From: Acidimicrobiia bacterium
GTDB lineage: Bacteria > Actinomycetota > Acidimicrobiia > IMCC26256 > PALSA-610
Length of the DNA stretch: 46,799 nucleotides
Direction: 5' to 3'
NCBI GenBank assembly: GCA_036271555.1
Contig: DATBAK010000035.1
Location: forward strand, 1 to 46,799
A program made the position numbers and the translations under genes. How positions within the stretch are numbered: the first letter of the stretch is position 1; the number at the start of each line of letters is the position of its first letter. Shown piece after piece: positions 8,452 through 29,358 of this stretch. A model generated the notes under the pieces. That model made no database searches and had not been told where the DNA came from. It was given only the letters and a program-made list of their open reading frames with translations.

Positions 8452-9753
8452 ATGGTGGGGCGACGGATCACGGTCGGGCTGGTGATTGTGGGGCTCGTCG
8501 GCGCGTGCGCGGCCCAAGCGGACGCGTCGACGAGCAGCCAGTCGGTGGCGGGCGAAGCGACGGGGTCGCATTTCCTGACGTTCACGCCGGAGAACACGCA
8601 CGAGGAGGTCGGCAACTACCACTCGCTCGGCCAGCTCGGCAACGGGTCGTACGACATCACGACGACCGAGGCGACCGTGTGCTCACACGGCGACGCGTCG
8701 CAGTCGCTCACCGGCACCGCGACGCTGCAACGCGACGATGGCGCGCAGCTGCGAGGCACCGTCGTCGGAACCCAGTCGTGCTTCGCCGACGCAGATGGCA
8801 CCTCGGCGGTGACGTTCACGCTCATCCTCACGAGCGGAACGCGTGACCTCGTCGGCGCGCGCGTGCAGTTCACGGGCCGGTTCGGCAACGTCGTCGCCAT
8901 TCCGGACGGCGACCGCGGCGACGAGACGCTGACGATCGCGGGGTCGCTGTCGACCACGAAGCGCCTCGGCTGGTGGACGCTCGGTCAGTCGGGGAGCGTC
9001 TACGCGTTCGGTGGCGCGCCCTACCTCGGCCGCGCGACCACACCGACCGCGCCCGCGACCGCGCTCGCCGCGACACGCGACGGCGGTGGCTACTGGGTCG
9101 TCAACTCGCTCGGTCAGGTGTACGCATTCGGCGACGCGCGTTGGTCCGGCAATGCGGACCGTTCGGGTTGGTCCGCGTCCGAGCGCGCGGTGAGCATCGT
9201 GTCGACCGCCTCGGGAGCCGGGTACTGGTTGTTCACGAACGCCGGTCGCGTCGTGCCGTTCGGTGACGCGCCCAACCTCGGCGAGTTCTTCCCGCTCCCG
9301 CTGAACCGGCCGATCGTCGCCGCGATCGCGACGCCGTCACATCACGGCTACTTGCTCGTCGCCTCCGACGGCGGTGTGTTCGCGTACGGCGACGCGCAGT
9401 TCCGCGGCTCGACCGGCGCGTTGAAGCTCAATCGCCCGATCGTCGCGGCGGCCGCGCCGTGCCCGTGGGCGATCGACGGGTGTCAGAGCCCCGGCGGCGC
9501 GGGCTACTGGCTGATCGCGTCGGACGGCGGCGTGTTCGCGTTCGGTGGCGCGCCGTTCCGGGGCTCGCTCGGCGGCCGCGCGCTCACGGCGCCGATCGTC
9601 GGCGCTTCGACGTACGGGAGCTTCAGTGAGGGCTACGTGCTGACGAGCAGCACCGGCGACGCCTTCGACTTCTCGTCGAACCCGTTCTTCGGTTGGTCCG
9701 ACACGAACGCGCTCACCTCGCCACCGATCGCCGGGATCACGGCGACCGGCTGA
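8452..9753 (+). CDS. Secreted protein with C-terminal GYW-type repeats
   Basis: A 433-residue protein with a signal peptide (MVGRRITVGLVIVGLVGACA) and GAAGGGG before the ATG. Residues about 30-160 form a beta-rich domain of unknown family with two cysteines (TVCSHG, TQSCFAD). Residues 165-430 hold about six of the GYW-(V/L)-DGGVFAFGDA-F-GS repeats that are also in the CAP protein at 3295-4530. It has no enzyme motif. It probably acts outside the cell; a link to the dioxygenase just upstream is suggested only by spacing. Confidence 0.8.
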   Translation: MVGRRITVGLVIVGLVGACAAQADASTSSQSVAGEATGSHFLTFTPENTHEEVGNYHSLGQLGNGSYDITTTEATVCSHGDASQSLTGTATLQRDDGAQLRGTVVGTQSCFADADGTSAVTFTLILTSGTRDLVGARVQFTGRFGNVVAIPDGDRGDETLTIAGSLSTTKRLGWWTLGQSGSVYAFGGAPYLGRATTPTAPATALAATRDGGGYWVVNSLGQVYAFGDARWSGNADRSGWSASERAVSIVSTASGAGYWLFTNAGRVVPFGDAPNLGEFFPLPLNRPIVAAIATPSHHGYLLVASDGGVFAYGDAQFRGSTGALKLNRPIVAAAAPCPWAIDGCQSPGGAGYWLIASDGGVFAFGGAPFRGSLGGRALTAPIVGASTYGSFSEGYVLTSSTGDAFDFSSNPFFGWSDTNALTSPPIAGITATG

Positions 9754-11475
9754 TCATCCCTGCGCGGCCAGGTGCTCGGCCGCGCGCCACGCCAGCGCGA
9801 GGATCGTCAGCACCGGGTTGGCGCCGCCGTTCGTGACGTGCACGCTGCCGTCGGCGACGACGATGCGTTCGGTGCCCCAGACCCTTCCCCACGGATCGGT
9901 CGCGCCGTCACGGGGCGACGCGGCCATGCGCGCAGTGCCGGCCTGGTGCTGACCGCCGGACAGCACCCGCCGTGTGGGTGCCGCGGTCCACGTGTCGCGC
10001 GCGCCGGCCGCGACGAGCCACTCTTGCGCACGCTCGGCGACGAACGCGGCCACGCGCAGATCGGCCTCGTGTTGCTCGCCTTCGAATCGCGCGACGGCGA
10101 CGCCGTACTGGTCGGTCACGTGATCCGCGAGTCGGACGCGTGCGGCGCGCGTCGGGATCTCCTGCACCGGTCCCATCACGTGGCCGGTGCGCAGGTAGCC
10201 CTCGGTCATCGCGGCGCGGACCGAGTCGTCGTCGCGCGCGATGTTCGGAGGCAGGGCCCATACGAGATGCAGCGCGGGCAGCTTCACGAACTCGTTCGCG
10301 AGCAGTCCGCCACCGACGATGCCGTCGTTGCCGTGCGAGAAGTCGCGCGTCGCGATCGCCGGCCCCGGACCGAGCCCGTCGATCACGACGTCGTCGAACC
10401 GTCCGTACGCGCCCGCGTAGGTGTGGCCCTGCAGGCAGTGGCCGACCCAGTCGTTGCCGAGCCCGCTCACGAGCAGCAGACGCGCGCTCTCGACCGCGCC
10501 ACCCGCGAGCACGACGCGCCCACCGCGTACAACTCGCTCGCCGTTTGCCGCGCGCAACGTCACGTTGCCGTCGTCGTCGACGCGCACGGCCTGCGTCTCG
10601 CCGATCAACGTCGCACCCGCCGCGATCGCGCGCGCGAGCACCGTGGTCGCCGTGCCGTTCTTCGCGTCGACCGGACACGCGAAGCCGACGCAGAAGCCGC
10701 AGCGCACGCACGCGGCGCGGCCGCCGAACGGGATCGAGTTCGCGAGCAACGGAACCGGCGCGGTCGACCAGCCCAGCTCGCGCGCGGCGGCGTCGAGCCG
10801 GCGCGCCTCGGGCGAAGGTGAGAACGGGGGCATCGGGTAGCCGCGAGTACGTGGGGCTTCGAGCCGGTGACCGGTCGCGCCGGCCACGCCGAGCTCCCAT
10901 TCGACCCGGTCGTAATAGGGCGCGAGGTCGTCGTAGGTGATGGGCCAGTCGGCGAGCGCGGATCCTTCGGGTACGCCGTAGCGCGTCGCCATGCGGAAGT
11001 CGTCGGGCAGGAAGCGCCACGCCTGCGCGCCGAACACGCGCGTTCCACCGCCCGCGGTGATCGCGTTGTGGTGGTAGCCGTCGTCGGTCGGCCCGAGCGC
11101 GACCTCGACGCCCGCGTCGTCGACAGTCGCGCGCGGATGGCCGGTCGGACTCACGCCGTCGCCGCGCGCGGGGAAGCGGTGGTTGCGCAGATGGTCGCGA
11201 GGTACGTCGTCGCGATCGAGCCAGCGACCGCGCTCGACGACGAGCACCGATGCACCCGCCTCCGCGAGCACACACGCGCTCACGCCCCCGCCGGCGCCAC
11301 TGCCGACGACGATCACGTCGTATCGCGCGCGCAGGTCGCGCAGATGAATGTTCGGTGGCGCGGCGATGTGCGGCGGCGGATCAGGCACGCCGAGCGGGAA
11401 CGGCTCGTAGCCGATCTCGCTCCATGCGCCCGACTCGGGATCCGCGTAGAACGCGACGAGATCGCGAGCGTTCAC
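9754..11475 (-). CDS. GMC-family FAD oxidoreductase with Cys cluster
   Basis: A 573-residue glucose-methanol-choline oxidoreductase. FAD motif GSGAGGG at 58-64, E-R after the second strand, AGGGTRVFGAQAWR (GMC-type substrate/FAD segment), and the C-terminal SGGQHQAGTARM with GGANPVLTI that supply the catalytic His/Asn pair. Residues 256-267 hold C-x2-C-x2-C-x4-C-P, as in long-chain alcohol oxidase-like members. It oxidises an alcohol; the substrate is unknown. The GTG start has no clear ribosome binding site. Its stop directly abuts the stop of the convergent repeat protein. Confidence 0.88.
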   Translation of the reverse strand: MNARDLVAFYADPESGAWSEIGYEPFPLGVPDPPPHIAAPPNIHLRDLRARYDVIVVGSGAGGGVSACVLAEAGASVLVVERGRWLDRDDVPRDHLRNHRFPARGDGVSPTGHPRATVDDAGVEVALGPTDDGYHHNAITAGGGTRVFGAQAWRFLPDDFRMATRYGVPEGSALADWPITYDDLAPYYDRVEWELGVAGATGHRLEAPRTRGYPMPPFSPSPEARRLDAAARELGWSTAPVPLLANSIPFGGRAACVRCGFCVGFACPVDAKNGTATTVLARAIAAGATLIGETQAVRVDDDGNVTLRAANGERVVRGGRVVLAGGAVESARLLLVSGLGNDWVGHCLQGHTYAGAYGRFDDVVIDGLGPGPAIATRDFSHGNDGIVGGGLLANEFVKLPALHLVWALPPNIARDDDSVRAAMTEGYLRTGHVMGPVQEIPTRAARVRLADHVTDQYGVAVARFEGEQHEADLRVAAFVAERAQEWLVAAGARDTWTAAPTRRVLSGGQHQAGTARMAASPRDGATDPWGRVWGTERIVVADGSVHVTNGGANPVLTILALAWRAAEHLAAQG

Positions 11476-19153: not shown

Positions 19154-20176
19154 TCACGAGCTGCCGAGCGTCGACGTCTGCGGCACGTGATCGTGAGTCC
19201 AGCTCCCGACGGCGTGGCACTGCGTCGTGCTCGGGCACGACACCGCCGCGAGTGAGTTCGAGAAGTGCCCGCTCCGGGGCACGTTTTGGTGTGCCCACGT
19301 GGTGCCGTCCCACGTCAGCACCAGCCCGAGGCTGAACTTCGTGGTGCCGTCCTTCTCGAGCGGCAGCCACTTCCCGCGGTCCCAGTTGTAGTACCAGCCG
19401 CTCGTCATGCAGTACGTCGGCGACGCGCACGACACGCTCTGCAGACCCGCGAGCGTGCTCGGCGTGGGCGCGCCGGCGTCGGTCCAGTGCGCGCCGTCGA
19501 ACGTCTGCACGCGGAGCTCGTCGTTGTTGATGGTCGTCGCGCCGATCGCCACGCACGTGGTCGCGCTCGGACACGAGAGGTCGGTGACCCACGGCTGGAG
19601 CCCGGAGCCGGCGACCGTCGTGAGCGACCCGTCGTCCCAGCGCTCGAAGAGCGGGGTCTCGATGTCGTGCTGCGACTGGTAGCGGTTGCCGACGACGAAG
19701 CACGTCGTGGTGGTCGGGCACGCGACGCCGAACAGGAGGTACGGCTTCGTGCCCGGCGGGTTCGGCACGATCGACCAGTGCGCGCCGTCCCAGTGCTCGA
19801 CGAGCGCGGTCGTGTCGGGACGGAAGTTCGACTGCGACCACCCGACCGCGAGGCAGGAGTCCGGGCCCGAGCACGCGACCGACAGGAGGTTGGTCGACGC
19901 GTCCTTCCGGTTGCGCGTCGGCGCCATCTGCCAGTGGCGTCCGTTCCAGCGCATCCCGATCGTCTCGTAGACGTTGTCGACGAGGAACGTGCCGAGGGCC
20001 ATGCACGACGACGGCGTCGCGCACGCGATTTCGCGCAGCTCGTTCGGCCCGTTGCCGCGGTTCGGGCTCGTCTCGAGCGTCCACGACGACGGTGCTGCGG
20101 ACGCGCTCGCGGCCGACCCGATGACGAACGCCGTCGCGAGCAGAAGGCACGCGACGCGCCGAACGCTTCCGGCCAT
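19154..20176 (-). CDS. Secreted six-repeat protein, probable beta-propeller
   Basis: A 340-residue protein with a signal peptide (MAGSVRRVACLLLATAFVIGS, then ASASA). GGGGGA seven bases before ATG 20176 fixes the start. Six repeats of about 52 residues each carry a Cys-x6-Cys pair (ACATPSSCMALG, ACSGPDSCLAVG, ACPTTTTCFVVG, SCPSATTCVAIG, SCASPTYCMTSG, SCPSTTQCHAVG) and W(D/N)G-W. The layout fits a six-bladed propeller with one disulfide per blade. No catalytic motif is seen and the ligand is unknown. Confidence 0.82.
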   Translation of the reverse strand: MAGSVRRVACLLLATAFVIGSAASASAAPSSWTLETSPNRGNGPNELREIACATPSSCMALGTFLVDNVYETIGMRWNGRHWQMAPTRNRKDASTNLLSVACSGPDSCLAVGWSQSNFRPDTTALVEHWDGAHWSIVPNPPGTKPYLLFGVACPTTTTCFVVGNRYQSQHDIETPLFERWDDGSLTTVAGSGLQPWVTDLSCPSATTCVAIGATTINNDELRVQTFDGAHWTDAGAPTPSTLAGLQSVSCASPTYCMTSGWYYNWDRGKWLPLEKDGTTKFSLGLVLTWDGTTWAHQNVPRSGHFSNSLAAVSCPSTTQCHAVGSWTHDHVPQTSTLGSS

Positions 20177-20229
20177 GATCCGATCCCCCGCCGAGTGCCC
20201 GCAATGTAGGCGCCGCGAGGGGTGATCGC

Positions 20230-21156: not shown

Positions 21157-21353
21157 GAAAGGTCCTCTGTCGGTCGGCGGCTGGCCCCGGAGCGCCCGCG
21201 CGCCGGGTGAATCGTCGATCGAACGCCCCAGCCATCCCGATCCGCTCGCCACTATGAGTGGGTGGATGCGCGCCCGTCGTGGTCGATTCTGAGGCAACCA
21301 CCCCATGGAGTGCAAGTGCAGAGCCGCCGAAAGGCCGTCGCGAGGGCGTTTGG

Positions 21354-21359
21354 TACGAT
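21354..21359 (+). promoter_or_regulatory. Probable -10 element of carD
   Basis: TACGAT, 36 bases before the carD ATG; no convincing -35. The 239-base gap between the cyclase and carD otherwise shows no gene. Confidence 0.4.
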
Positions 21360-21395
21360 GACGGGCTTTCCCCGCGAGCCCGCGCCTGGAGTGAG

Positions 21396-21875
21396 ATGCC
21401 GTTCAAAGTCGGCGATCGCGTCGTGTACCCCCACCACGGGGCGGCGGTGATCGAGAAGAAGGAGGTCCGCGAGGCCTTCGGCGAGAAGACCGAGTACCTC
21501 GTGCTGCGCATGGCGCACGGCGACCTCATGCTCTCGGTGCCCACGGCGAAGGCCGAGGAGGTGGGCATGCGCCCGCCGATCAGCGCCGAGGACGTCGACG
21601 ACCTGTTCCAGCTGCTCGCCAAGAAGGACGTGCGCGAGCCCACCAACTGGAGCCGGCGGTTCAAGAACCACCAGGAGAAGCTGAAGTCGGGCGACGTCTA
21701 CCAGGTCGCCGAGGTCGTGCGGAACCTCGCGTTGCGCGACGTCTCGAAGGGCCTCTCGGCCGGCGAGAAGTCGATGCTGAACAAGGCCCGCAGCGTGCTC
21801 GTCTCCGAGCTCAGCTTCGCCCTCGACGTCTCCGAGGACGACGCGCTCACCCGCCTCGAGGGTGCGCTGGCCTAG
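21396..21875 (+). CDS. carD: CarD-family transcriptional regulator
   Basis: A 159-residue protein. The N-terminal Tudor-like domain (FKVGDRVVYPHHGAAVIEKKE, LVLRMAHGDLMLSVPTAKAEEVGMRP) binds the RNA polymerase beta subunit; the C-terminal helical domain (NWSRRFKNHQEKLKSGDVYQVAEVVRNL, LSAGEKSMLNKARSVLVSEL) binds DNA at the upstream edge of the bubble. CarD stabilises open complexes at many promoters and is essential in mycobacteria. GGAG precedes the ATG. The stop lies in the palindrome GGCCTAGGCC. Confidence 0.95.
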   Translation: MPFKVGDRVVYPHHGAAVIEKKEVREAFGEKTEYLVLRMAHGDLMLSVPTAKAEEVGMRPPISAEDVDDLFQLLAKKDVREPTNWSRRFKNHQEKLKSGDVYQVAEVVRNLALRDVSKGLSAGEKSMLNKARSVLVSELSFALDVSEDDALTRLEGALA

Positions 21876-21881
21876 GCCCCG

Positions 21882-23273
21882 CTATTCGGGGATCACGACG
21901 GGCACGCCGGCAACGAGCTGCACGCTCGCGAAGTGGAGCGTCCGGCTGTTCGGGTAGCCGACGTCGGGTTGCGTGAAGGCCGCGAACGCGAGCTGCACCT
22001 TCCCGTTCGTGGTCGTGAACGCCGTGCCGCCGCCGGGACCCGCGAGCCGGTTCTGCGACGCGAGCACGGGAGTGCTCTGGAGGCGGCGGCACGGTCCCGC
22101 GGGACCGTCGCACACCGCGACGCCCTCGGCGTACGCGGCCGTCGACCAGGAGTTCCCGGAGTAGAAGAGATAGTCGTGCGAGCCGATGCGCAGCATCGAC
22201 GGCGCCTCGACGATCCCGTGCTCCCACTTCGCGCCGGGGGACAGCAGCTGTGACGGGGTGCCGGTCAGCGTGAGGCCGTCGGGCGTGAGCGGCTGTGACC
22301 AGATGATCGTCGGCGCGAGCGGGACCGCCTCGCTCTTCCAGAGCAACGTCACCGCGCCGGCCGCGTCGACGAACGGGCTCGGATCGATCGAGCCGCCGGA
22401 CTGGCAGACGAGCGGTGCCTTCGAGAAGTCGACGAACGGGCCTGCCGGTTGCGCCGCGACCGCGACCGAGACGCACTCGAGGCCGGATCCGCGGTCGCGC
22501 ACGGTGTAGTACGCGACGTAGTGGCCGCCGAGCGCGACGACCGACGGCGCCCACGTCGCGCCGGGGCTCGCCCACGCCGGCACCGCCGCGAGCGCGTCGC
22601 CCTGGAGCGACCAGTGCGAGAGGTCGCTCGACTCGAGGACCTGGAGGTTCCCGCCGCCGGCGTTGGTCGAGTACGCGTAGTAGCGGGACCCGACGCGCAG
22701 GACGGAGGGATCGGGGAAGTCGTACGGGTAGCGCGCGCCGGTCACCGCCGCGAGCGCGGCCGAGCACGGCGCGTCGGCGCTCGTGAGCGCGTCGACCGCG
22801 TCGTGCGTCGAACCTCGCCGCAGCGCGTCGGTCGCGTGCTGCACGCCCGCGATGCACGCGTCCCGTTGCTCCGAGTACCGCGCGAGCTGGTCGAGGATCA
22901 GCACGGTGCCGTTCCGCTGTTGATGCGTCGACGAGAGCTCGTGCTCGAGCTTCGTCAGCTCCTGCTGCGCGGCGGCGCGCTCCGTTCGGCGCTGCGCGTC
23001 GAGCGTCGTCGTGCGCGAGCGGTCGGCGGTGTCGGAAGCGGTCTGCGCCTGAAGGTCGACGAGGGTGCGCCGCGCCGCGGCTTCCGTGGCGCGCGAACGC
23101 GCGAGCGCGGTGCTCTCGCGGTGGAGCGCAGGCTGCAGCGCGACCGCGTCGGTGACGACCGCGGCGCCGGTCACGACGACCGCGGCGACGAGCGCGACCG
23201 TCCACCACGCGGGCCGGCGCCGGCGCCGACCCACCGGCACCAGCTCGTCGGAACGCGTCGCGGTGACGGTCAT
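21882..23273 (-). CDS. Membrane-anchored glycoside hydrolase family 43-like protein
   Basis: A 463-residue type II membrane protein: cytoplasmic Arg-rich start, TM at about 23-45, coiled coil 50-128, a C-x29-C segment (Cys140, Cys170), then a GH43-like five-bladed propeller from about 182. The three expected acidic residues are visible: Asp188 in YDFPDPSVL, Asp in GGSIDPSPFVD and Glu in IVEAPSML. GH43 enzymes cut arabinose- or xylose-containing glycans outside the cell. The start codon overlaps the stop of the upstream gene (TCAT on the plus strand), so the two are coupled. Its N-terminal module resembles that neighbour. Confidence 0.85.
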   Translation of the reverse strand: MTVTATRSDELVPVGRRRRRPAWWTVALVAAVVVTGAAVVTDAVALQPALHRESTALARSRATEAAARRTLVDLQAQTASDTADRSRTTTLDAQRRTERAAAQQELTKLEHELSSTHQQRNGTVLILDQLARYSEQRDACIAGVQHATDALRRGSTHDAVDALTSADAPCSAALAAVTGARYPYDFPDPSVLRVGSRYYAYSTNAGGGNLQVLESSDLSHWSLQGDALAAVPAWASPGATWAPSVVALGGHYVAYYTVRDRGSGLECVSVAVAAQPAGPFVDFSKAPLVCQSGGSIDPSPFVDAAGAVTLLWKSEAVPLAPTIIWSQPLTPDGLTLTGTPSQLLSPGAKWEHGIVEAPSMLRIGSHDYLFYSGNSWSTAAYAEGVAVCDGPAGPCRRLQSTPVLASQNRLAGPGGGTAFTTTNGKVQLAFAAFTQPDVGYPNSRTLHFASVQLVAGVPVVIPE

Positions 23274-23740
23274 GCCGCGGCCTCGCTGCAGAGCTGCGCC
23301 GCGGTCGGGAGCGTCGTCGCGAGGTGCGCGGTGTCGCCGACCGCAGCCTCGTTCAACAGCTGCGACGTGGCGAGCAGGCACGCGTCGAGGCGCTGGGCCC
23401 GCGCGGTGTTCTCCTTCAGCTCCTCGCGGTGGCGTGCGAGGTCGGCGAGCGCCGCGGTGAGACTCGCGTACTCGACGCGGTCGGTCGCGCGGAGGCGGTC
23501 GCGCGCGCTGGTGTCGGCGGCGAGCGCGGTGCGGGCGCGCGCGAGCTCGACCGATGCCTGCGCGCGTTGCGAGCCTGCGTCGCGAACCTGCGCGTCGAGG
23601 TGCACGACGTGCTGGCGCGAGACGGCCAGCGAGTGGCGCGTCGCGTCGAGATCGAGGCGCGCGTGAACCGTGAACACCGTCGCGCACAGCAGCGCGACCA
23701 CGATTGCGACGATCGTCGCGACCCCACTTCGCGTCGACAC
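23270..23740 (-). CDS. Single-pass membrane coiled-coil protein, paralogue of the GH43 protein N-terminus
   Basis: A 156-residue protein with TM at about 7-25, a long Ala/Arg-rich coiled coil (30-118) and Cys121 and Cys151 separated by exactly 29 residues, as in the GH43 protein encoded just downstream. The GTG start has AGAGGTGG nine bases upstream. It has no enzyme motif. ATGA overlap with the GH43 gene and the shared architecture suggest that the two form a hetero-oligomer at the membrane. Confidence 0.78.
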   Translation of the reverse strand: MSTRSGVATIVAIVVALLCATVFTVHARLDLDATRHSLAVSRQHVVHLDAQVRDAGSQRAQASVELARARTALAADTSARDRLRATDRVEYASLTAALADLARHREELKENTARAQRLDACLLATSQLLNEAAVGDTAHLATTLPTAAQLCSEAAA

Positions 23741-25899: not shown

Positions 25900-26011
25900 G
25901 CCCTGAGTGGTGTGTGCGCGCATGTTCCGCGACGATTACGGGGACATAACCGATCTGTGACGCGGCCGCTCCCGGTCGCGCTCGATGCGCACCTCAGATC
26001 GGGAGGTCGGT

Positions 26012-27229
26012 ATGCACCTCACGCGCCAGCGGACGGCCGTGGCCGCGATTGCGGTCGTCGCCGTCGTCGCCCTGACCGCTTGCGGAAGCTCGTCGTCGAA
26101 CAGCTCGAACGACACCAGCGGGGGATCGGGAGGCGACATCCCGACGTCGATCTCGCCCTCGACGTTCAAGGTCGACTTCGCCGCGATGGACCAGCTGAAG
26201 TCGCTCGCCGCGAAGGGCAAGGGTCTGGTCGGTGTGCTGCTGCCGGACACGACGTCATCGGCGCGGTACGAGACGTTCGACCGGCCGTACCTCACGAAGG
26301 CGTTGCAGGCCGCGGGCCTGTCGTCGTCGGACTTCAAGGTCGACAACGCGCAGGGCAGCACGAGCACGATGCAGACCCAGGCCGAGGCCGACATCACCAA
26401 GGGCGCGACCGTGTTGCTCATCGACGCGATCGACTCGGGCAGCGCCGCCGCGATCGAGCGGGAGGCGAAGTCGAAGGGTGTCGCCGTCATCGACTACGAC
26501 CGCTTGGTGCAGGGCGGCACCGAAGGCCGCTTCTACGTGAGCTTCGACAACGTGAAGGTCGGTCAACTCATCGGTCAGGGTGAGGAGAGCTGCATCGCGG
26601 CATGGAAGGTCACGAAGCCGAACATCCTCGTGATGGACGGCGACCCGACCGACAACAACGCGTCGCTGTTCGCGCAGGGCTACAACGGCGTGCTGAAGTC
26701 GCACTTCGACGACGGCTCGTACGTGAAGGTCGGCGAGCCCGCGGGCACCTGGACGCCGTCGGTCGCGGCGACGACGTTCCAGCAGCAGCTCACCGCGCAC
26801 CCGAACATCAACGCCGTGATCACGCCCAACGACGACAACGCGAACGCGGTGATCGCGATCCTGAAGTCGCAGCACACGCCGGCGCGCACCTTCCCGACCA
26901 CCGGGCAGGACGCGTCCTTGTCGGGTCTGCAGAACGTGCTCGCGGGCTACCAGTGCGGGACGGTGTACAAGCCGATCTACGTCGAGGCGCAGGCCGCGGT
27001 CGCGCTCGCGCTGTACCTGCGGGCCGGTGAGAAGGCGCCGAGCGGGCTCGTGAACGCGACCTCGAAGGACCCGAAGGGCGGCGACGTCGACTCCGTCTTC
27101 CTCACGCCGATCTGGGTCACGACGACGAACATGGCGTCGACGGTCGTGGCCGACAAGGGCGTGAACGTCACGCAGCTGTGCACGTCGGCGCTGGCGAGCG
27201 CGTGCACGACCGCCGGGATCAACAAGTAA
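26012..27229 (+). CDS. Sugar ABC transporter substrate-binding lipoprotein (XylF-like)
   Basis: A 405-residue lipoprotein. GGGAGGTC precedes the ATG; the signal peptide ends in the lipobox LTAC (Cys about 24). The mature part is a type I periplasmic-binding fold with XylF-like landmarks: VAVIDYDRL, YVSFDNVKVGQLIGQG, DGDPTDNNASLFAQG, TTGQDASLSGLQNVLAGYQCGTVYKPI. XylF binds D-xylose; a pentose or similar sugar is likely here, but the substrate is not proven. It is the first gene of a three-gene operon. Confidence 0.9.
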   Translation: MHLTRQRTAVAAIAVVAVVALTACGSSSSNSSNDTSGGSGGDIPTSISPSTFKVDFAAMDQLKSLAAKGKGLVGVLLPDTTSSARYETFDRPYLTKALQAAGLSSSDFKVDNAQGSTSTMQTQAEADITKGATVLLIDAIDSGSAAAIEREAKSKGVAVIDYDRLVQGGTEGRFYVSFDNVKVGQLIGQGEESCIAAWKVTKPNILVMDGDPTDNNASLFAQGYNGVLKSHFDDGSYVKVGEPAGTWTPSVAATTFQQQLTAHPNINAVITPNDDNANAVIAILKSQHTPARTFPTTGQDASLSGLQNVLAGYQCGTVYKPIYVEAQAAVALALYLRAGEKAPSGLVNATSKDPKGGDVDSVFLTPIWVTTTNMASTVVADKGVNVTQLCTSALASACTTAGINK

Positions 27230-27241
27230 GCGATCGCGCAC

Positions 27242-28060
27242 ATGACGGCGACAGCACCGGACGTGGCACGCGCCGATACCGACCCGCCACTGCTCCGACT
27301 CGAGCGGGTGAGCAAGAGCTTCGGCGCGGTGCACGCGCTCGTCGATGTCGACTTCGACATTCCGGCCGGTCAGGTCACCGCGCTCGCGGGTGACAACGGC
27401 GCGGGGAAGTCGGTCCTCATCAAGTGCATCGCGGGCATCCACTCCCCGGACTCCGGACACATTCTCTGGGAAGGCCGGCCGGTGCACATCCGCAGCCCGC
27501 GCGAGTCGGCCGCGCTCGGCATCGAGACCGTGCACCAGGACCTCGCGCTGTGCGACAACCTCGACATCGCGCAGAACCTGTTCCTGGGCCGCGAGCGCGT
27601 GCACAATCTCGTGCTCGCCGAGGACGAGATGGAGCAGGCCGCGGCGGAGACGCTCGCGAGCCTCGCGGTGACGACGGTGCGATCGGTGCGTCAGCTCGTC
27701 GCGTCGCTCTCCGGAGGTCAGCGTCAGGCCGTCGCGATCGCCAAGGCCGTGCTGTGGAACTCGAAGCTCGTCGTGATGGACGAGCCCACCGCCGCGCTCG
27801 GGGTCGCGCAGACCGAGATGGTGCTCCGGCTCGTCCGCAGCCTCGCGGAGCGCGGGCTCGCGGTGCTCATCGTGTCGCACAACATGAACGACGTGTTCGA
27901 GGTCGCGGACCGGATCGCGGTGCTGCGGCTCGGCCGGATGGTGGCGCAGCGGCCGACGAGCGAGCTCGACACGCAGATCGTCGTCGATCTCATGACGACG
28001 GGAAAGTCGACGCGCACCGTCGCGCGCGACGGTAGGCCCGACGGGAGCGCGACGACATGA
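27242..28060 (+). CDS. Sugar ABC transporter ATP-binding protein, single domain
   Basis: A 272-residue ATPase with Walker A GDNGAGKS (50-57), Q-loop VHQDLALCDNL, signature LSGGQRQ, Walker B LVVMDEPTAALG and switch His in VSHNMND. Classical XylG/RbsA proteins have two fused ATPase domains and are about 500 residues long; this one has one, as in FrcA-like systems, so it must work as a homodimer. It lies 12 bases after the binding protein and overlaps the permease start by ATGA. Confidence 0.92.
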   Translation: MTATAPDVARADTDPPLLRLERVSKSFGAVHALVDVDFDIPAGQVTALAGDNGAGKSVLIKCIAGIHSPDSGHILWEGRPVHIRSPRESAALGIETVHQDLALCDNLDIAQNLFLGRERVHNLVLAEDEMEQAAAETLASLAVTTVRSVRQLVASLSGGQRQAVAIAKAVLWNSKLVVMDEPTAALGVAQTEMVLRLVRSLAERGLAVLIVSHNMNDVFEVADRIAVLRLGRMVAQRPTSELDTQIVVDLMTTGKSTRTVARDGRPDGSATT

Positions 28061-29358
28061 CCCGGGTCGAGGAGCCGACGCCGCCGGTGGATGCCGACGC
28101 GCAGGAGGGCGCGCTCGCCGACGCCGCGCGCGCCGAGGCCGATCCCGGCGACGCCGGCGCCCACGCCGACACGCTGGGCGCGTACCTGCGCGTCTGGTGG
28201 ACGCGTGTGCGCTCGGGCGACAGTGGCGTGCTGCCCGTCATCGCGGGCCTGATCCTGATCTCGCTGATCTTCCAGTCGCTCAACTCGAAGTTCCTGTCGT
28301 CCGGGAACCTCGTGAACCTGCTGGTGCAGGGCGCGGCCTACATGCTCCTCGCGATGGGCGAGGTGTTCGTACTGCTCCTCGGCGAGATCGACCTGTCGAT
28401 CGGGTACGTGGGCGGCATCGGCGCGATCGTCACCGCCGAGCTCGTGAAGCAGTCGACGGGGTGGCCGTGGTGGGCCGCGATCCTCATCGCGCTGATCACG
28501 TGCGCGGCGATCGGCGCGTTGCAGGGCACGATCATCACCCGGCTCGGGCTGCCGTCGTTCGTCGTGACCCTCGGCGGCCTGCTCGGTTGGCAGGGCGTCA
28601 TGCTGCTCATCCTCGGCACCGGTGGCACGGTGCCGATCGACAACCACATCGTCGTCGACATCACGAGTGGCAACCTCACCCCGCTCGCGAGCTGGATCGT
28701 GATGGTCGTGATCGTCGCGATCGTCGGCGCGCGCATGTGGCGCAACGAATCGCGTCGCCGCGCCTCGGGGCTGGTCGCCCCGCCCGCGGTCGCGACGCTG
28801 CTGAAGATCGCGCTCATCGCCGCCGCGGGCATCGCCGTGGTGCTCGTGTGCAACACGAACCGCGGCCGGCTGATCGCGATCCGAGGCGTGCCGTGGGTCG
28901 TGCTCGTCGTGCTCGGTGTCCTCGCGGCGTGGACGTTCCTGCTGAATCGCACGCGGTTCGGCCGCTACCTCTACGCGATCGGCGGCAACGCGGAAGCCGC
29001 GCGCCGCGCCGGCATTCCGCTCGCACGCATGCGCACGGCAGGCTTCGCGCTCGGATCGCTGACCGCCGGCATCGGCGGAATCGTGTACGCGTCGCGCATC
29101 AACTCGGTGTCGACGTCGCTCGACGGCGGCACCCTCGTGCTGTACGCGGTCGCGGCGGCGGTGATCGGCGGCACGAGTCTCTTCGGAGGGCGGGGCAAGG
29201 CCATCCACGCGGTGCTCGGCGGCCTCGTCATCGCCGCGATCGACAACGGAATGGGTCTGCAGGGCTACAGCGCGGCCGCGGACAAGGTCGTGACCGCGCT
29301 GGTGCTGCTCGTCGCGGTCGCGATCGACTCGATCGCGCGTCGCAACGCCGCGCGCTGA
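28057..29358 (+). CDS. Sugar ABC transporter permease (XylH-like)
   Basis: A 433-residue integral membrane protein with about ten to twelve hydrophobic segments. Family landmarks: AYMLLAMGEVFVLLLGEIDLS, LPSFVVTLGGLLGWQG, FGRYLYAIGGNAEAARRAGI and the C-terminal YAVAAAVIGGTSLFGGRGK. The first 45 residues are a hydrophilic extension. It forms the channel of the sugar importer with the two preceding gene products. Confidence 0.92.
   Translation: MTRVEEPTPPVDADAQEGALADAARAEADPGDAGAHADTLGAYLRVWWTRVRSGDSGVLPVIAGLILISLIFQSLNSKFLSSGNLVNLLVQGAAYMLLAMGEVFVLLLGEIDLSIGYVGGIGAIVTAELVKQSTGWPWWAAILIALITCAAIGALQGTIITRLGLPSFVVTLGGLLGWQGVMLLILGTGGTVPIDNHIVVDITSGNLTPLASWIVMVVIVAIVGARMWRNESRRRASGLVAPPAVATLLKIALIAAAGIAVVLVCNTNRGRLIAIRGVPWVVLVVLGVLAAWTFLLNRTRFGRYLYAIGGNAEAARRAGIPLARMRTAGFALGSLTAGIGGIVYASRINSVSTSLDGGTLVLYAVAAAVIGGTSLFGGRGKAIHAVLGGLVIAAIDNGMGLQGYSAAADKVVTALVLLVAVAIDSIARRNAAR

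Follow-up and report, generated by a model that had tools for sequence, protein, structure and literature searches.

We describe a conserved pair of genes in Acidimicrobiia, a little-studied group of soil bacteria, whose products probably form a two-chain, membrane-anchored extracytoplasmic glycosidase. The pair was found in a window of 46,799 nucleotides (GC ~70%), which makes up an entire contig (G000:C35); the genome to which it belongs has 4.68 Mb. The upstream gene encodes a protein without a catalytic domain, here called the stalk, and the downstream gene encodes an enzyme in which an N-terminal module is followed by a GH43 propeller (Table 1). A preliminary description of this DNA had reported one N-terminal membrane helix per protein, a cysteine pair with 29 residues between in each chain, an ATGA overlap of the two genes and a GH43 propeller with all three acidic residues. 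These observations were reproduced throughout: hydropathy places a single hydrophobic helix near each N-terminus, the cysteines and the overlap are where they had been reported, and the propeller carries its three acids. The ATGA overlap suggests that the stalk and enzyme genes are translationally coupled. In the stalk, C121, N130, V134, D136 and C151 are unchanged across an alignment of 13 sequences; a third cysteine, C19, lies inside the membrane helix and is not conserved.

Table 1. Features of the stalk–enzyme gene pair, in window positions.
Feature	Position	Strand	Description or evidence
Stalk gene	23270..23740	−	156 aa, GTG start; translation; membrane helix, heptad coiled coil and C-terminal helical hairpin
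Enzyme gene	21882..23273	−	463 aa, ATG start; module residues 1–178, GH43 propeller ~184–452
ATGA overlap, stalk stop/enzyme start	23270..23273	−	Sequence
Stalk membrane helix, ~residues 7–25	23666..23722	−	Hydropathy maximum, 19-residue window from residue 7
Enzyme membrane helix, ~residues 26–44	23142..23198	−	Hydropathy maximum, 19-residue window from residue 26
Stalk hairpin C121-x29-C151	23288..23380	−	Alignment; hairpin HMM match
Enzyme hairpin C140-x29-C170	22764..22856	−	Alignment; hairpin HMM E 7.7e-12
GH43 catalytic base D188, DFPDP motif	22710..22712	−	Invariant in 14; motif in 26/26
GH43 pKa-modulating D297, SIDP motif	22383..22385	−	Invariant in 14; motif in 26/26
GH43 general acid E356, VEAP motif	22206..22208	−	Invariant in 14; motif in 26/26

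The stalk–enzyme layout is confirmed as real and as conserved far beyond chance: it recurs across Acidimicrobiia with 22 stalks and 26 module-bearing enzymes. Among 60 relatives searched, 13 further genomes contain full-length enzymes, and the stalk is the next gene upstream in all 12 loci with upstream sequence, the thirteenth genome (G036) carrying stalk and enzyme on two contig ends. The gene junctions of the first 13 pairs, including the window, comprise nine 4-base overlaps, two 1-base overlaps, one 28-base overlap and one 3-base gap. A scan of 58 genomes of the order with the stalk profile gave 14 strong matches, each accompanied by a full-length enzyme, and no stand-alone stalk. A scan of named genomes and a class-wide search added more divergent pairs from Acidimicrobiaceae-type MAGs, other families of the class and Aquihabitans; stalk homologues adjoin the enzyme in 21 loci other than that of the window. 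The close relatives of the pair are from Acidimicrobiia, nearly all of them MAGs, together with the complete genome of Aquihabitans sp. G128. In a tree with 18 GH43s that lack the module, the module-bearing enzymes group together as a single clade (support 95/92).

The preliminary description had suggested a search for gene pairs with the C-x29-C module and had named a lack of conserved cysteine spacing in orthologues as evidence against its reading. Such pairs do recur across the class, and the spacing is kept: it is 30 (C-x29-C) in 23 of the 24 paired-clade enzymes, including two (L012 and L108) whose contigs end before any upstream sequence, and 34 in Aquihabitans, whereas the stalks have a spacing of 30 in 17 of 22 cases, 29 in four and 28 in one. 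Two module-bearing GH43 enzymes (L058, 9148–10803; L110 in G257, 9601–11178) have no upstream stalk gene, so the partner is not always needed, and both have the spacing of 30. Their hairpins resemble the stalk-type consensus (ALNQIxVGD-like) more than the enzyme type. Another GH43 enzyme (L010:1495–2994, minus strand, in G026) has a CxxC...CxxC zinc-ribbon-like N-terminus ahead of its membrane helix.

The modules of the two proteins are homologous, although their similarity emerges with profiles only, BLASTP of stalk against enzyme protein finding none. Alignment of the stalk and enzyme module profiles with hhalign covered 160 columns (probability 99.2, E 3.1e-19), and the hairpin alone aligned over 46 columns (probability 97.9, E 6e-13); for the hairpin, the best of 100 column shuffles reached 3.0, or 29.8 with the two cysteine columns fixed. 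Reciprocally, an HMM built from stalks only matched the enzyme N-termini and vice versa. These results bear out the homology implied by the duplicated stalk module that had been proposed, for which missing profile similarity of the two N-termini had been named as counter-evidence. Asked whether the module was duplicated once or several times, tree tests gave p-AU values of 0.076 for a single clade of stalks and 0.068 for a single clade of enzymes. Searches with the stalk in Pfam, PDB sequences and Foldseek either matched coiled coils of a generic kind or gave nothing below E 0.001. LemA-like proteins and peptidases of the M23 and NlpC types were rejected as stalk relatives, their weak profile matches covering the coiled coil only and not the hairpin.

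Sequence statistics make a heteromeric stalk well supported. From the centre of the membrane helix to the first cysteine, the chains measure 89 to 115 residues over 21 pairs, and the lengths of partners co-vary (r = 0.905; mean absolute difference 2.5 versus 8.2 for shuffled pairs). The correlation is retained in phylogenetic contrasts (r = 0.775, parametric p = 2e-5, sign-flip p = 0.014), also when Aquihabitans, which departs from the other pairs (cysteine spacing 28/34, lengths 115 versus 105), is left out (r = 0.818, sign-flip p = 0.030). Gaps of exactly seven residues occur in the stalk as well as the enzyme alignment. Both chains have a heptad period of 3.5 with an identical phase counted from the first cysteine, and their position-wise hydrophobicity correlates with 0.84 at offset 0. 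Shared ancestry is enough to explain why both chains have one phase, and the matched lengths could stem from a wall of equal thickness; the argument for contact is the cognate-specific charge pairing.

For this pairing, positions a, d, e and g were assigned by hydrophobicity alone, and a g–e′ contact was taken as i to i′+5. The net g–e′ attraction is 2.0 for heteromers versus 1.2 and 0.3 for homomers, with the heteromer better in 13 pairs, worse in three and equal in four. Cognate partners score 2.0 versus 0.24 for non-cognate ones, a difference reached by none of 20,000 permutations, which do not fully remove relatedness; in 14 representatives, the cognate-specific pairing has p = 0.0002. Among 147 combinations of phase and offset, the g–e′ contact ranks first (the mirror image being the same set) and in the full set scores more than 4 SD above their mean. 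The heptad repeat, common register and g–e′ complementarity between partners expected of a parallel heteromeric coiled coil are thus all present. The two enzymes without partners had been expected to carry self-complementary g–e′ charges; their net values are −2 and 0, contrary to that expectation. It is improbable that the two proteins, though co-transcribed, build separate homomeric stalks that are alike in length because both span the same distance to the wall. A common envelope thickness alone would give the length co-variation, and the enzymes without partners must manage on their own, but the g–e′ charges suit the cognate partner above self and far above non-cognate chains, and the gene pairing is near universal.

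AlphaFold2 models the stalk, from the stalk alignment, with a pLDDT of 94 as a helix (4–134), a turn and a second helix (137–155), and the enzyme with an overall pLDDT of 81 as a helix (23–152), a turn, a helix (156–178) and then an all-beta domain. In these models, C121/C151 and C140/C170 each lie 14–16 residues either side of the hairpin turn, so that the cysteine pair of each chain sits on the two arms of its terminal helical hairpin, as expected of cysteines opposed across antiparallel helices. Because the two cysteines are about equally distant from the turn, an intrachain staple is the simpler and likelier reading of the models than a bond between chains. The preliminary description had proposed a disulfide-locked hetero-oligomer that holds the enzyme near the cell surface. 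Of this proposal, the hetero-oligomer is supported by lengths, heptad phase and g–e′ charges, and the tethering by the predicted placement of the propeller outside the membrane, but the disulfide lock is not, as AlphaFold2 places each cysteine pair within the hairpin of one chain. A bond from a cysteine of one chain to a cysteine of the other is sterically conceivable, both chains carrying their pairs at equal height in register. We nevertheless consider it unlikely, given that in the AlphaFold2 models both cysteines of a chain are about equally far from the turn, that the first cysteine is at heptad phase 0 (g), where like positions in a parallel dimer point apart, and that the pair is retained in the enzymes without a partner. 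In the 95.8% complete G000 genome, neither VKOR (PF07884) nor Thioredoxin_4/DsbA-like (PF13462) was matched. Exported proteins of the same genome have conserved cysteine pairs despite this. A secreted-looking protein at ~19154–20210 of the window (minus strand) contains repeated C-x6-C motifs (ACATPSSC, ACSGPDSC, ACPTTTTC ...), whose sequence suggests that the organism has disulfide-containing exported repeats.

The membership of the enzyme in GH43 is secure. It matches Pfam PF04616 with 141.9 bits against a cut-off of 32.2 (E 3.5e-41), its all-beta AlphaFold2 domain corresponds to a five-bladed beta-propeller (Foldseek match to 4qqs, E 2.5e-24, target TM-score 0.81), and the motifs of the catalytic triad, an Asp base, a pKa-modulating Asp and a Glu acid, are found in every enzyme. 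The nearest structures are HoAraf43 of Halothermothrix orenii (4qqs) and 3kst of Bacteroides thetaiotaomicron, at 27–28% identity (only 28% for 4qqs). HoAraf43 has weak activity on pNP-alpha-L-arabinofuranoside, no activity was detected on arabinopentaose, and its natural substrate is unknown (PMC4356313). None of the NCBIfam arabinanase equivalogs AbnA, AbnB and BT0367 applies to our enzyme, the best reaching 32.3 bits against a cut-off of 480. A CarD-family regulator (window 21258–21875, plus strand) is convergent with the enzyme gene and is a common neighbour in L042, L043 and L047; this downstream gene, present in the closest family only, gives no clue to the substrate, and outside the pair no neighbouring gene is kept from one genus to another. 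A sugar-type ABC transporter set (Peripla_BP_4, ABC_tran, BPD_transp_2) lies 2.2 kb from the pair (window 25985–29358, plus strand) and is not kept beside it in relatives. That the enzyme acts on furanosyl or pentosyl residues is a guess, because there is no NCBIfam equivalog, no conserved neighbour and only the weakly active HoAraf43 to go by. Whereas no conserved sugar-use genes adjoin the pair, as might be expected if the propeller were a glycan-binding sensor or structural part, the retention of all three catalytic acids in 26 of 26 enzymes and of many other propeller residues that are invariant in an alignment of 14 orthologues makes such a non-hydrolytic role very improbable.

From the computed module homology, conserved gene pairing, co-varying lengths, cognate charge pairing and intact triad, we infer a working model of a physical complex with a presumed two-chain stoichiometry. 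The stalk and enzyme would be co-translated and each inserted into the membrane so that the basic N-terminus stays inside and the helix projects outside, where the two chains would zip side by side into a parallel, in-register heptad coiled coil. This coiled coil would rise ~11–15 nm off the membrane (~90–109 residues from the membrane centre to the first cysteine at 0.15 nm each, minus half the membrane). At the top, each chain would fold back into a short helical hairpin with its two cysteines facing and probably joined by an intrachain disulfide, and the second hairpin helix of the enzyme would run directly into the GH43 propeller. Such an assembly would be a tether of set height that keeps the glycosidase in the zone of the cell wall, where it may trim a wall polysaccharide or a captured one of furanosyl or pentosyl residues, the likeliest being alpha-L-arabinofuranosyl or a sugar of similar chemistry.

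The module is not confined to GH43 enzymes. An HMM of the hairpin only found it in 19 of 395 genomes of the class; elsewhere in the phylum, two genomes from one other class gave clear matches. It forms the end of a zinc-ribbon stalk in three genomes (G329, G415 and G401), which belong to two actinobacterial classes. In G329, L109:2864–3829 encodes a trypsin-like protease (PF13365, 1.8e-26) with a zinc ribbon, a membrane segment and a coiled coil, and 13 bases later begins the gene of a C-x29-C stalk with the same three features (L109:3846 onward). G415 (L145) has the same order of protease and stalk, with both frames broken in the assembly, and in G401 (L146) the contig ends upstream of the stalk; the evidence for pairing of the module with a protease thus consists of a single intact locus and a broken one. 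These protease-type stalks share the zinc-ribbon N-terminus with the L010 enzyme of G026. In G675, a stand-alone membrane coiled-coil protein resembling the stalk (L147:1474–2274, minus strand) ends in CASGAMTAVGQLGEGDIDGATASLTAVASAC with a spacing of 30 and has no obvious enzyme partner. We tentatively raise the possibility, which we hold to be rather doubtful, that the C-x29-C hairpin stalk marks a portable two-chain ruler in general use in actinobacterial envelopes, which sets various exo-enzymes at a fixed, heptad-quantised height over the membrane; if true, it would carry a GH43 glycosidase in Acidimicrobiia and a trypsin-like protease in other lineages.

The stalk module is unannotated and belongs to no Pfam family, yet it has a conserved partner, and with this pair it can be tested directly whether a heterotypic coiled coil positions an enzyme. 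That partners change length together, in steps of a full heptad, points to a molecular ruler in this class of bacteria, the envelopes of which have received little study, and finding the module next to a protease hints at a mounting that can be reused. To annotators and enzymologists, the near-obligate pairing carries the message that both chains should be expressed together. The preliminary description knew of no system with this layout; in agreement with it, targeted searches of the open-access literature returned nothing relevant, and the layout is apparently undescribed in the literature searched.

Individual parts of the layout do have counterparts in known systems. With GH43 proteins (PF04616; 4qqs, 3kst), the enzyme shares the propeller fold and the catalytic triad; both structures match the catalytic domain only, the membrane coiled-coil module and the coupled partner being extra here. 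EnvC/RipC-type proteins are extracytoplasmic coiled-coil peptidoglycan hydrolases activated by FtsEX. They resemble our enzyme as extracytoplasmic hydrolases on a long coiled coil and gave weak matches in the coiled coil only, but carry an M23 or NlpC domain rather than GH43, have FtsEX where the pair has no conserved FtsEX neighbour and, in the M23 matches, lack the hairpin of the stalk module. FtsL–FtsB/DivIC heterodimers consist of two small bitopic proteins with a cytoplasmic N-terminus and a parallel extracytoplasmic coiled coil. The predicted arrangement of the stalk and enzyme is alike in all three respects, but one chain is an enzyme, division genes are not adjacent, and the stalk matches neither FtsL nor DivIC in Pfam, the only match being to FTA4 below the cut-off (E 0.1). 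The zinc-ribbon stalk and protease locus of G329 (L109) differs from the GH43 pair in its serine protease, reversed gene order and shorter protease coiled coil, but shares with it both the C-x29-C hairpin stalk and an adjacent membrane-anchored enzyme.
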